From: Chondrilla cf. caribensis
Taxonomy: Eukaryota > Porifera > Demospongiae > Chondrillida > Chondrillidae
Direction of reading: 5' to 3'
NCBI GenBank assembly: GCA_964020155.1
Contig: OZ026554.1
Location: 1,450,247-1,514,246 of the forward strand
DNA: 64,000 nt
Positions within the stretch are counted from its first letter, which is position 1. Every line of letters begins with the position of its first letter. The notes beneath the pieces are model-generated. The model was not told the DNA's origin. It was given only the letters and a program-made list of their open reading frames with translations, and made no database searches. Made by a program: the position numbers and the translations under genes. Positions 48,087 to 61,178 of this stretch are shown here, piece after piece.

Positions 48087-51000
48087 TTATACTTCGTCCT
48101 CTACGGCTCCAAGATTTGTCGTGAATGTGGTACTGGTGGGAGACTGCGGTTGCCCTTCTGATGCGGTGTAACTTCTACGCTTTTCTGGGAGAATGGGGAT
48201 TGTGTCTGAATCGCCAGCAGCTATTGTGCTGGATCGAGGCGGCATGTCCTTCTCGAATTCTTTAACCACGGCAAAATTCTGGTAATCCGGTTGCTTGGTT
48301 GCGGTTCGCTGGAGAGACAAAGAGGCGGATATGTCAGGATTCCAACGGCGAAGCCCAGTGTGCAGCTCTGAAGCCGTGGGCCGGTCCGAGGGCTCCATTG
48401 CCCAGCAGTCCAGCATCAGATCGTATATCTCCTGAGGGCAGTTGTCTGGACAAGGGAGTACCTGCCCTGTCCGCACATACTGGCACACCTCCTCGTTGGT
48501 CATGGAGAAATATGGCTGCTGACCGAATGAGAATAGTTCCCACATGGTGACACCGAAAGACCATATGTCACTCTGTAGGGTGAATTTGCCATAGATGATG
48601 GCTTCTGGCGGCATCCAGCGAACTGGCAAGAGAGAGGACTCACCGAGACGATAATAGTCGGAGCTATACACATCTTGAGAGAGGCCAAAATCGGCAATTT
48701 TCACTTTGAGCTTACTGCTGACCAAACAGTTGCGGGAAGCCATGTCCCTGTGGACGTAGTGATGGTTGGCGAGATACTCCAACCCGGCTGCTATGTCTAC
48801 AGTCATGCCAACTTGCTGCTCGATCCTGATTCCAGTGGAAGAGAGATTCTGTTTGCTACCAGTCATCTTTCTGGGGTCGTTTTTGCGCAGGAAATTGTTG
48901 AGGTCTCCCAGCTCCATGTACTCAAATATCATGCACAAGGGCTCCTGTTCAATGCACACACCAAGCAGCTGAAGGATGTTAGGATGAGTAAATTCATGCA
49001 TCAGAGATGCTTCCTTGAAGAACTCCTGTTTTGCCTGAAGTGAAGCACCTTCCTTGAGAACCTTGACGGCGACAGTTGTGGACTCCTCCTCCGTGATGAT
49101 GCCCCTAGCTTCTGCCTGCACCACAAGACCAAAATGGCCCTGCCCCAGATCACGAATGTACACAATGTCGTCTCGCGGGAACTGAGGCAGCTCGATACCC
49201 TCGTATTGCAAGGGCACCAACCCAACCCCATTGTGTCCTCCATTTGAAGTCACGTAATGGTCATTGGTCATATCCATGGCAGTCACAGGACGGTCCAGGC
49301 TTTTCAGTCTGTATTCTCCGTCGATGGCCATAAGAAGATCATTGTTGCTTTTCTTCTTACGACAACAAATGCAGCAGATAACAATGAAAATAGCAATAGT
49401 TAGAAATACGATGATGCCTCCGATGACTGCTATAACGATAGTGACATATAGGGGCAGTGCTGTAGGTGGCTCCTCCACGCTGACACAGGAGGGAACATCA
49501 CAATTTTCTGGTACCACTTCTCCATTTTCCAGTCTGGTGTAACACCAAGGTCTGTCGCTCCGTTGCTCCGGGTTACGACAATGATTATGTCCGATGAGGT
49601 CCCGTCTTAGCAACGATGTGATGTGCTTGACATCGAACGGGAGTTCAAGGTCCCAGGATAAGCATGTCCTCCCACTTGCGGTGCGATCAACTTCACCTTT
49701 GTACGTAAGCCCATTATCACTTTCCATGTAACAGCTAATGTTACCTATGAAGAGAAAGACACATGGTAACAAATATGGTTGGAAATCAGGAAAAAATAAA
49801 AGTAAAACCAAATATTTTCAAGGATGTACTTACGTACCTTCACTAGCAACTATTATTGTGCTAAAATCAGTAATGTTGGTGTAACACTGGGAGGTGAGAT
49901 TTGATTTTGAAGGCAGAGTGGTGCAGTTGGGTACGGGCAATGTTCCAAATGTTCGTGCAAATATGGTAACACTATGGTACACTGTGGAGCACTCTCCAGT
50001 GATGAACTCCTCACAGAATTCGTTGCAAACCTGGAGGAGAGATATAAAGTGTGTATGGTCCTAATATAAAATACATCCATAGAATATATGTATGTATGTA
50101 TATACATCTAAATTCATGGAACATATCTCGCACATAATTGAAGGACAACATTAATTTTAATACATTAATGTACATTGGTGATCAAATAAATGATAATGAT
50201 AATGAGTGATATGTCACATTGGACACAAACTAAAAAATTTAAGAAAAATGCTCGGTATAATGGCACTCATCTACACTTCAAATGATTCGGTGGTACCGTG
50301 ATACAAAGCTACCCTACCTGTATGGGCTGCGGCGTTGTCTTGGAAAGGTCACACGAAGGGAAGTAGTAATGGCAGACAAAGTCCATTATAAGACCCATAC
50401 ACCTTGGAGTGATCCCTCCGTCTCTCTCCAGTGAGTTAAACCACTGGTTGACATATCCCTCCAGAGCAGTCTCGTTGTACTGCGTAGTGTCGGTGTATAT
50501 GTAGTCGTAGCCAATTGACCCATAGAGCCGACACAGTCCAGTGTCATTGTACAGTTCACATTGTGGACCATCCCCTACATGATACAACAGTGTATTGACC
50601 TCAATGTACGGGTGATACACATTTTCTCATCCTAGGGAGTTGTTGGCTAAGAAAGCTCCGTTGGGCTATACGTACCAAGCCTCTACACACACTGAGCCTC
50701 TACACACACTGAGCTTCTACACACACCGAGCTTCTACACACACCAAGCCTCTACACACACCAAGCTACTACACACACCGAGCCTCTGCAAACACCAAGTC
50801 ACTACACCCACCAAGTCACTACACACACCAAGCTACTACACACACCGAGCCTCTGCAAACACCAAGTAACTACACACACCAAGCCTCTACACGCACCAAG
50901 CCTCTACACGAACCAAGCCTCTACACACAGTAAACACTGTACCACACTCCGCAGACTAACCACACTTTGGCACATTGCAATACTCCCATCTTGTGTTGGG

Positions 51001-60000: not shown

Positions 60001-61178
60001 CACACATACACACACACACACACACACACACACACACACACACACACACACACACACACACGTATCAGACCTAGTAGCAAAGTACACACATTGGTTAGTG
60101 TAACACCTCACTCAGCTCCCATATTCCATGTAAACTACAAGGCAACCAGCACTGATAACAAATACCTCTCACAAGAGGTACAGATTGATGTCCCCTTCGA
60201 GGTACTTGCGAAGTAATTCAGGCTGAATGTGTCTGGTATGACCTACATACACACATGCCTACAACCTGGATAGCACTGATAGGGCTTCACTACAGGTACA
60301 ACAGTGTACCGTTAGGTGTATTGCAAGTGAGATCAACAACCGTGAAGGTGGACCACGCATTAGCTGTGTCAACAAGCTAGCATGTTCCCAACACCACAGG
60401 GCATGTAATTTACTACTGCAATTCTACGATGACGCACACCCACCTTCAGCTGCTACAAAATAGTGTGGACAATCAATGCTCTACTACAACTACAGTGGAC
60501 CACTTCAATAGCAGACACATTGTGACTAGCCTTCTAGTTCACTGTAAAGAGGTTGCCCACTTTTCAGAGTTCACAGAATGTATTAGCACCATAGGGAAGT
60601 CCATCTCAGTGCCTCAAGGAGTGTCCTTTGTAGGGAGGTGATTTCTACTATGCCCTTCATTCATAGTGTCATTCAATAGAGACCTCACAGTACAATACAG
60701 TATGCTATGTGTGTACAGCAAATATTTCAAGGGACATACACAACGGTAGGAACAGTGTATTACCCTATCTCTACTGACCCTTTCGGGTAAACTCTAGATG
60801 TAGGATACCACCAGTTTATGCGAATCAGGATATGAATACGTGCTGCGTACATGTATGTACCCACAAGAAATGTCACCTTTCGCTAAAACATGACCTTTCA
60901 TTCGAATGTACCCTGTTGAATGTCGAATCATAGACACTCTTATAAACTACCATGGTCGAACCATAGACACTACATAACCTAGTGGAATCAATTCGCATAT
61001 CTCCAATTAAACCAGTGCGAAGTACTTTAGTTGACCACTTATCTGCACCGTACACTTGACGGGACACGCGGGCACAAATGGGTACTTGCTAAGTGATTAA
61101 CACGAACTCACCTGTGGTAGCGAGTACCAGGAGTAACAGAACACACTTGAAACTCATCGTTAGATCCAGTCGACTCAT
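48087..61178 (-). CDS. Receptor tyrosine kinase, Fz-Kr-Fz-Kr-TM-kinase
   Basis: Eight exons: 61112-61178, 53144-53228, 51980-52494, 51399-51425, 50961-51203, 50318-50574, 49838-50030, 48087-49744; 3045 nt, 1014 aa, all in phase. Residues 1-23 are a signal peptide (FKCVLLLLVLATTG). CRD1 is about 58-215 (FCQQAALKLLCRYIFPTCDP; ICRRACYTLEDFLC). Kringle 1 is 234-312 with Cys 234, 255, 283, 295, 307, 312. CRD2 is about 318-450 (MDFVCHYYFPSCD; VCNEFCEEFITGEC). Kringle 2 is 467-549 with six Cys. TM is about 560-588. The kinase has GQGHFG at 663-668, Lys690, HRD 794-796, DFG 814-816 and a YxxxYY loop (Tyr822, 826, 827), and ends with WMPPEAI. Kinase and kringle resemble ROR/MuSK, known Wnt/agrin-linked receptors, but there is no Ig domain and CRD plus kringle are doubled. 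Kinase motifs look active. The first intron is 7.9 kb, so a missed exon is possible. Confidence 0.85.
50685..50935. repeat. ~16-bp minisatellite, RTK intron
   Basis: Units of ctacacacaccaagcct with gagcct, aagtcac and aagctac variants, filling most of the intron between kringle 1 and CRD2 exons. Confidence 0.9.
53909..54265. repeat. 37-bp minisatellite, RTK intron 1
   Basis: About nine highly uniform units containing gtatcctccctgggtgtgta and ttaggggatatacagtt. The high similarity suggests recent expansion or homogenisation. Confidence 0.93.
55189..55410. repeat. (AC)n microsatellite, RTK intron 1
   Basis: About 220 bp of AC interrupted twice by the same atacacgcacgt block, so a larger unit has been duplicated; (GU)n in the transcript. 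Confidence 0.93.
55691..55899. repeat. (GT)n followed by (AC)n, self-complementary
   Basis: GT run 55691-55820 then AC run 55838-55899, separated by about 17 bp around gtgacatgtgtgcaac. The two arms can pair over about 60 bp. Confidence 0.93.
56403..56471 (+). other. tRNA-like sequence, possible SINE head
   Basis: Contains tggctcagtgg (pol III A box) and, about 38 bp later, ggtttgagtcc (B box with one mismatch to GGTTCGANTCC). A T-rich stretch follows near 56472. The 3' acceptor stem does not pair convincingly with the 5' end, so a tRNA-derived SINE or tRNA pseudogene is more likely than a working tRNA. No anticodon is assigned. Confidence 0.45.
56913..57038. repeat. GGTGGTGAT-type repeat, RTK intron 1
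   Basis: Trinucleotide-based 9- to 12-bp units (ggtggtgatggtggt, gatggcggtgat). It gives poly-Gly/Asp or poly-His frames that are not believed to be coding. Confidence 0.9.
57877..58352. repeat. Complex (AC)n block with higher-order units, RTK intron 1
   Basis: AC runs alternate with cacccagcacacacccaac, acctaaaacacacccag and acacaaacacacgcacactc blocks, several of which recur. Duplications of whole sub-blocks built it. Confidence 0.92.
59219..59430. repeat. Irregular ~22-bp repeat, RTK intron 1
   Basis: Diverged units built on aaggtgaccaccccttcatc and ctatggtgacctccctctct. No gene. Confidence 0.65.
59958..60060. repeat. (AC)n microsatellite, RTK intron 1
   Basis: About 100 bp of AC with one AT interruption; (GU)n in the transcript. 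Confidence 0.95.
60493..60690. mobile_element. CAGTGGACC-type MITE, RTK intron 1
   Basis: About 198 bp with a left end cagtggaccactt. The interior matches the array MITEs at 5979 and 11203 (gaggttgcccacttttcag; atgtattagcaccatag; cctcaaggagtgtccttt). The right end is degraded. Confidence 0.6.

Follow-up and report, generated by a model that had tools for sequence, protein, structure and literature searches.

The sponge Chondrilla cf. caribensis carries a gene for a receptor tyrosine kinase (RTK) in which the pair formed by a Frizzled-type (Fz) cysteine-rich domain (CRD) and a kringle occurs twice in one chain. The gene occupies positions 61178–48087, on the minus strand, of the window analysed here, a stretch of 64,000 nucleotides (contig OZ026554.1, positions 1,450,247 to 1,514,246) from an assembly of 137 Mb in 37 contigs (GCA_964020155.1), and it is a real, conserved variant of the CRD–kringle receptor kinases. 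We consider it fairly probable that the product is a single-pass RTK of the ROR/MuSK/Nrk/TRK branch with a tandem CRD–kringle ectodomain, that it belongs to a conserved group outside the ROR and MuSK/Nrk clades, and that it is clustered by a ligand. The members of this group are most likely sponge receptors.

Gene model and domain architecture

The rebuilt gene has eight exons and seven introns, all GT..AG and with consistent phases, and its spliced product is a protein of 1014 residues free of internal stops, in the order signal peptide, CRD1, kringle 1, CRD2, kringle 2, transmembrane (TM) helix and tyrosine kinase (Table 1). An earlier note on this DNA had proposed the same order in a single frame of 1014 residues, and both the rebuilt model, with identical end coordinates, and Pfam agree with it. 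Over the whole protein, Pfam assigns PK_Tyr at 327.6 bits, Kringle at 132.3 bits in two stretches and Fz at 65.9 bits in two stretches, and no immunoglobulin (Ig) domain is among the Pfam matches. Scored singly, the domains reach 29.7 bits (CRD1), 82.3 (kringle 1), 45.2 (CRD2) and 68.8 (kringle 2). The profiles thereby recognise both of the CRDs that the note had predicted, CRD1 just under the Pfam Fz cut-off of 32.1 bits with an E-value of 1e-6. There are 11 cysteines in CRD1, 10 in CRD2 and six in each kringle.

Sequence comparison with the PDB places both CRDs near those of the ROR and MuSK receptors. At E < 0.01, CRD1 matches only ROR2 (9.9e-7), MuSK (2.7e-6 at best) and Nrk (4.4e-4), the other three rows within E 10 being unrelated. 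CRD2 matches only ROR2 (2.6e-9) and MuSK (0.0011) at that threshold, followed by Nrk at 0.048 and by Frizzled, Smo and sFRP at 0.06–0.6. A chance match as the explanation for CRD1 is ruled out by its Fz E-value together with the PDB matches to the ROR2, MuSK and Nrk CRDs. An AlphaFold model of the CRD1 exon alone was poor (pLDDT, the predicted local distance difference test, 47), and a fold search with this low-confidence model gave seven matches at E ≤ 10, none of them at 0.001: the MuSK Fz domain twice, with human MuSK first, and Nrk, the MuSK and Nrk CRDs lying at E 0.026–0.089, then the Fz7, Smo and Fz10 CRDs and one unrelated transporter. This search lends weak support to a MuSK/Nrk-like CRD.

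With a predicted signal peptide, one TM helix, the VAVK lysine, HRD and DFG, the window protein has the features of an RTK, and the catalytic motifs that the earlier note had reported as kept (Lys690, HRD 794, DFG 814 and YSSDYY 822–827) are all present. The top four PDB rows for the kinase are MuSK; a chain holding two copies of the EGFR kinase comes next, then TRK and, further down, ROR1/ROR2. The signal peptide was assigned by hydropathy only, and exon 1, which has 67 nt and was modelled from genomic sequence, is the sole part of the gene model that could still be wrong. Intron 1, which follows it, measures 7.9 kb and is rich in repeats; it holds long TG/CA microsatellites at roughly 55180–55930, 57830–58360 and 59940–60070.

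Table 1. Exons, domains and catalytic motifs of the tandem CRD–kringle receptor gene (window positions; aa, residues of the predicted protein)
Feature	Position	Strand	Evidence
Exon 1, start codon and predicted signal peptide MSRLDLTMSFKCVLLLLVLATTG	61112..61178	-	Open, phase-consistent, GT donor; hydrophobic stretch
Exon 2, N-terminal linker ahead of CRD1	53144..53228	-	Model; aligns with P0003 (PPGAVFETNITTYG / PPGPVYATPIVTYG)
Exon 3, Frizzled-type CRD1, aa 51–217	51980..52494	-	Fz profile, PDB sequence matches, low-confidence fold
Exon 4, short linker	51399..51425	-	Model; aligns with P0002/P0003 linker
Exon 5, kringle 1, aa 233–313	50961..51203	-	Kringle 82.3 bits; 6 Cys
Exon 6, CRD2 first part	50318..50574	-	Fz 45.2 bits for exons 6+7
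Exon 7, CRD2 second part	49838..50030	-	Fz 45.2 bits for exons 6+7; best PDB match ROR2 CRD
Exon 8, kringle 2, TM, juxtamembrane, kinase, tail and stop	48087..49744	-	Model
Kringle 2, aa 466–550	49482..49736	-	Kringle 68.8 bits
Transmembrane helix, aa 561–590	49362..49451	-	Mean hydropathy up to 3.16 over 19 residues
Tyrosine kinase domain, aa 653–926	48354..49175	-	PK_Tyr 327.6 bits; best PDB match MuSK, E 1.4e-95
Catalytic Lys690 in VAVK	49062..49064	-	Sequence
HRD 794–796, catalytic loop	48744..48752	-	Sequence
DFG 814–816	48684..48692	-	Sequence
Activation loop YSSDYY (YxxxYY) 822–827	48651..48668	-	Sequence

Relatives with the same layout

Three protein searches returned 155, 158 and 1577 proteins at E ≤ 0.001 among 7712, 7996 and 4170 candidates, and the best 120 of each, together 267 different proteins, were scanned with in-house profiles made from the domains of the window protein, P0002, P0003, MuSK and Nrk. 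Among the matches listed, 142 of the 267 matched the kinase profile, a few of them plant kinases, and four of these 142 carry two CRDs and two kringles. These are P0002 (902 aa) and P0003 (973 aa), which are 47% and 46% identical to the window protein over the matched whole, P0184 (956 aa, with a signal-like start by eye; 58% identical over the kinase stretch), and P0225 (1110 aa; 48% over the same stretch), which has about 150 extra N-terminal residues relative to the window protein. All four are uninterrupted, and Pfam confirms the full order CRD–kringle–CRD–kringle–TM–kinase in each. Two incomplete relatives add to them: P0211 (845 aa, N-terminus cut) reads kringle–CRD–kringle–kinase, and P0001, 78% identical to the window protein, begins inside CRD2. 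A structural model of P0184 was fair (pLDDT 70), and the 50 Foldseek rows listed for it are all kinases, none bearing on the CRDs.

The insect RORs P0262 and P0266 give two CRD hits each, which belong to a single CRD interrupted by an insert, and in P0210 one kringle is split. Another 43 proteins among the matches listed show one kringle and no CRD in the sequence available; many of these one-kringle rows (P0121–P0126 and most of P0151–P0183) look like genomic last-exon frames that start just before kringle 2, where exon 8 of the window gene starts too.

These relatives bear directly on whether CRD1–kringle 1 and CRD2–kringle 2–kinase could be two adjacent genes that the model wrongly joined. 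Such an artefact would fit with a model built for this species from genomic sequence, with a CRD1 below the Pfam cut-off and with the long, repeat-rich intron 1. Against it, the same succession of modules is found joined in four uninterrupted proteins, exons 2–5 align with P0003, and three of the four proteins come from contigs of 3274, 3346 and 4258 bases, shorter than the 5.1 kb spanned by window exons 2–8, as would be expected of spliced RNA. In its strong form the artefact is refuted by the four relatives, and we regard it as extremely improbable. Because P0002, P0003, P0184 and P0225 share the full order, the window gene is one gene and not two, and the presence of the same layout in other sources turns an apparent one-off into a conserved receptor type.

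Relationships of the kinase

The kinase tree was built from 54 chosen kinase domains picked from the fetched lists, with own_C11 included, and with the C14 rows and the long rows hINSR, own_C9b and own_C18c left out. Long rows in the tree are own_C11, hTRKA, P0233, hDDR2, P0183 and own_C9_IgCRD, and the tree program issued a warning about long branches that meet. The window kinase falls in a clade of 20 rows (100/100) with P0001, P0151, P0184, P0002, P0003 and others; ROR (16 rows) and MuSK/Nrk (six rows) each form one clade at 100/100, and the window kinase lies outside both. P0225 pairs with P0211 apart from the 20-row clade, and the union of this pair with the 20 rows has a support of 66/0. 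In the best tree the 20-row clade stands with MuSK/Nrk rather than with ROR (87/85, not starred). Approximately unbiased (AU) tests were run twice on the kinase, three times on the CRDs and five times on the kringles, each p being a single-test, uncorrected value. For the kinase, they rejected neither the 20-row clade plus P0225/P0211 held with ROR (p-AU 0.184) nor ROR and MuSK united without the 20-row clade (p 0.126). Since the node is not starred and neither arrangement is rejected, membership of the window kinase in ROR or in MuSK/Nrk is not established. The kinase phylogeny envisaged in the earlier note gives a separate clade at 100/100, and its nearest neighbour, ROR or MuSK/Nrk, is not fixed. 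Three further kinases, P0192, P0204 and P0205, group next to MuSK/Nrk (88/64) and are possible non-bilaterian MuSK relatives; they share the juxtamembrane NPxY motif described below.

Origin of the two modules

A tree of CRDs (37 rows, with Fz-domain sequences from the assembly itself as the outgroup) sets the sponge CRD1 with the MuSK/Nrk CRDs (91/68, not starred) and CRD2 apart. A single clade of all sponge CRDs is rejected (p-AU 0.023), and CRD2 united with ROR is weakly rejected (p 0.041); in a smaller tree, CRD2 of the demosponge-type rows groups with ROR at only 73/44. In the kringle trees a single clade of all sponge kringles is not rejected (p 0.366), and the kringles do not settle the age of the duplication; neither kringle 1 with MuSK (p 0.0499) nor kringle 2 with ROR (p 0.0537) is supported. 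A long branch (1.05, 98/99) leads to kringle 2 of the window protein, P0001 and P0151. In these three proteins kringle 2 (49482–49736 in the window) is very divergent, its RWEYC stretch being replaced, and the catalytic motifs of the kinase are kept.

The two window CRDs do not look like recent copies, and a young tandem duplication is disfavoured by the CRD test, the kringles leaving the matter undecided. Because the single sponge CRD clade is rejected and CRD1 and CRD2 are 28% identical, either the doubling of the CRD–kringle pair is old or the modules diverged fast; this comes from several tests on few data. That the doubled receptor is the older state, with modules already distinct (CRD1 MuSK-like, CRD2 nearer ROR) before sponges parted from other animals and with MuSK/Nrk and ROR each keeping one module of a tandem ancestor, strikes us as improbable, and both kringle pairings and the CRD2–ROR test count against it.

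The same results bear on a sponge ROR orthologue, i.e., a ROR kinase whose CRD–kringle module was tandem-duplicated within the sponge line. A CRD directly followed by a kringle is the ROR order, found twice in the window chain, ROR2 is the best PDB match for CRD2 and, narrowly before MuSK, for CRD1, and neither the grouping of the kinase with ROR nor a single clade of sponge kringles is rejected. The best kinase tree nevertheless sets the clade with MuSK/Nrk at its unstarred node, CRD2 with ROR is weakly rejected, and the rejection of a joint CRD1–CRD2 clade argues against young copies. We consider a ROR orthologue unlikely.

Juxtamembrane and tail motifs

The NPxY motif was sought ahead of the kinase in 43 chosen family rows. 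Of these, 41 resemble the 20-row clade and take in all of its members, the other two being P0225 and P0211; P0176–P0179 were left out. It is present in 32 of the 43, among them P0002, P0003, P0184 and P0225, in all three vertebrate MuSK rows, and in P0192, P0204 and P0205. It is absent from the six ROR rows, the three Nrk-clade rows and the Hydra row, as well as from the window gene (NDHY, aa 623–626), P0001, P0151, P0152, P0166 and P0121–P0126. NPxY would dock a phosphotyrosine-binding protein such as Dok7.

This distribution is one of several points in favour of a receptor on the MuSK/Nrk side, a sponge form of MuSK with an extra CRD–kringle pair. MuSK is the best PDB match of the kinase, the sponge kinases join MuSK against ROR at 87/85, CRD1 groups with the MuSK/Nrk CRDs at 91/68, and the low-confidence fold of the CRD1 exon finds the human MuSK Fz domain first. 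None of the supporting nodes is starred, however, ROR plus MuSK excluding the sponges is not rejected, kringle 1 with MuSK is borderline rejected, the best PDB sequence match of CRD1 is ROR2 and not MuSK, and the window gene itself lacks NPxY. A MuSK/Nrk-side receptor is possible, yet we hold it to be doubtful.

The tails of the window protein (EDEV), P0003 (VTEV) and P0180 (ITQV) end in residues that may amount to a PDZ ligand, and those of P0165 (PLNP) and P0184 (HTHL) do not.

Proposed function

By analogy, the window receptor most likely works like ROR and MuSK. Domain order, catalytic residues and conservation of the layout are observed, and from this anatomy we infer ligand, clustering and downstream route. 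The CRDs would recognise a ligand outside the cell, most likely a Wnt or some other partner that is lipid-modified or associated with lipid, and a Frizzled may take part in the binding; the kringles would serve as structural elements packed against the CRDs. With two CRDs in each chain, avidity could rise, or one ligand could bridge receptors. Clustering would allow the kinase to trans-phosphorylate Y822/Y826/Y827, and the signal would leave through juxtamembrane and tail tyrosines. The Wnt and Frizzled genes of the same genome speak for this reading, as do the Wnt binding or Wnt responses reported for ROR1, ROR2 and Drosophila Ror, and the Wnt and Frizzled genes make a role in early Wnt-type signalling plausible.

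Several points weigh against this reading of a ligand-clustered receptor in a group of its own. The kinase tests leave its sister group undecided, and the window species lacks NPxY and has an unusual kringle 2, so that its receptor may signal differently from the related ones. In passages of PMC11219042, the ROR2 and MuSK CRDs are described as lacking the open lipid groove of Frizzled, and Nrk as burying a fatty acid; binding of a Wnt lipid can therefore not be read from the fold. A pocket is reported for ROR1 in part of PMC13259870.

The missing groove and the buried fatty acid are also what speaks for an adhesion receptor or lipid sensor, in which kringle and CRD bind matrix or fatty acid and Wnt reception plays no part. 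We think such a role doubtful: ROR-type CRDs act in Wnt responses in flies and vertebrates, with Wnt binding or Wnt responses reported for ROR1, ROR2 and Drosophila Ror (excerpts of PMC7067388, PMC11219042 and PMC13259870), and Wnt genes are present in the same genome.

Genomic context

Domain scans of the genome were run exon by exon, and their counts are lower bounds. In the whole assembly, only two kringles (PF00051) were found, both in the window gene. Fz (PF01392) gives at least 16 matches, one being the CRD1 exon of the window gene, and there are at least 24 Wnt exon matches, one near full length on C25, Frizzled seven-transmembrane domains in at least six places, and at least 30 homeodomain matches. 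The Wnt and Frizzled genes mark the source as an animal, and together with the homeodomain matches, the 137 Mb of the assembly and the early-branching kinase they fit a sponge.

The best-scoring other kinase of 139 genome matches lies on the same contig, 1.2 Mb off (C9:264500-274400, L037). This paralogue is MuSK-like (its own best PDB matches are MuSK), with a kinase 48% identical to that of the window; it has the order Ig, Ig, Fz, TM, kinase and no kringle, whereas the window gene has two CRDs, two kringles and no Ig. A partial copy of its ectodomain occurs on C1 (L038); the 9.9 kb examined there contain no kinase frame that reaches 90 aa. A kinase pair on C18 is DDR-like.

Elsewhere in the assembly, PF00112 gives 44 matches, 30 of them extracted as loci. 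Five cathepsin-like copies (C3:1951646-1984975, C6:242124-242672) have lost the catalytic Cys (e.g., QGQMGQSF); no clear silicatein was found among the PF00112 loci, and the Cys-less copies recall a silicatein-type change. Within the window, three very similar minus-strand frames (2688–3845, 10002–10943 and 16857–17858) form a small local duplication and from their motifs are presumably 2-oxoglutarate/iron oxygenases of the isopenicillin-N-synthase type. The minus-strand frame at 14844–16010, with FADD and other reverse-transcriptase-like motifs, we take to be probably a non-LTR (long terminal repeat) retroelement.

Comparison with described receptors

ROR and MuSK have roles in shaping tissue polarity and the nerve–muscle synapse, and a tandem-module receptor may bear on how their shared CRD–kringle ectodomain arose. 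No tandem CRD–kringle receptor was found in searches of open-licence PMC papers, and the relevant passages of PMC6386478 and PMC12716839 hold no such layout. Within that scope, the domain order is new among described receptors, as the earlier note had suggested. Its account of the ectodomain holds for the doubled CRD–kringle pair (two Fz and two Kringle stretches in Pfam) and for the missing Ig, and fails where the lack of Ig was counted as part of the novelty: Drosophila Nrk has CRD and kringle only, and Drosophila ROR lacks Ig (parts of PMC11219042 and PMC2772990). Many MuSK rows among the matches listed bear a kringle, which the note had allowed only in some lineages.

A partial precedent is Drosophila ROR, for which a section of PMC2772990, where the domain orders of ROR and NRK are given, describes a further Cys-rich region ahead of the customary CRD and single kringle. 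Other published statements, each taken from portions of the source, are that ROR is “conserved from sponges to humans” (PMC11219042), that CRD-FZ, which is associated with Ror/Musk, predates the family motifs (PMC8662651), and that Nrk is placed with ROR or MuSK and Drosophila Ror binds Wnt (PMC7067388).

The window protein resembles ROR in the succession CRD, kringle, TM and kinase and in a CRD2 closest in the PDB to that of ROR2, but ROR has one CRD–kringle pair instead of two, and vertebrate ROR has Ig. Human ROR1 and ROR2 are listed as pseudokinases (portion of PMC13259870), in contrast to the window kinase with its catalytic motifs kept. With MuSK/Nrk it shares an Fz CRD, a kringle, a TM helix and a TRK-like kinase, Nrk being likewise without Ig; MuSK is in addition the best PDB kinase match, and NPxY is common to vertebrate MuSK and the relatives of the window gene. 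Unlike the window protein, MuSK/Nrk has one CRD–kringle pair, MuSK has Ig, and the kinase clades are separate. The doubled CRD–kringle layout is new relative to the open-licence papers searched, and its mechanism is likely of a known kind. Found beside Wnts, Frizzleds and a kringle-less Ig–CRD kinase, the tandem-module receptor offers a concrete alternative starting point for the ROR and MuSK ectodomain, and as a natural two-CRD receptor it is suited to testing ligand binding and avidity.

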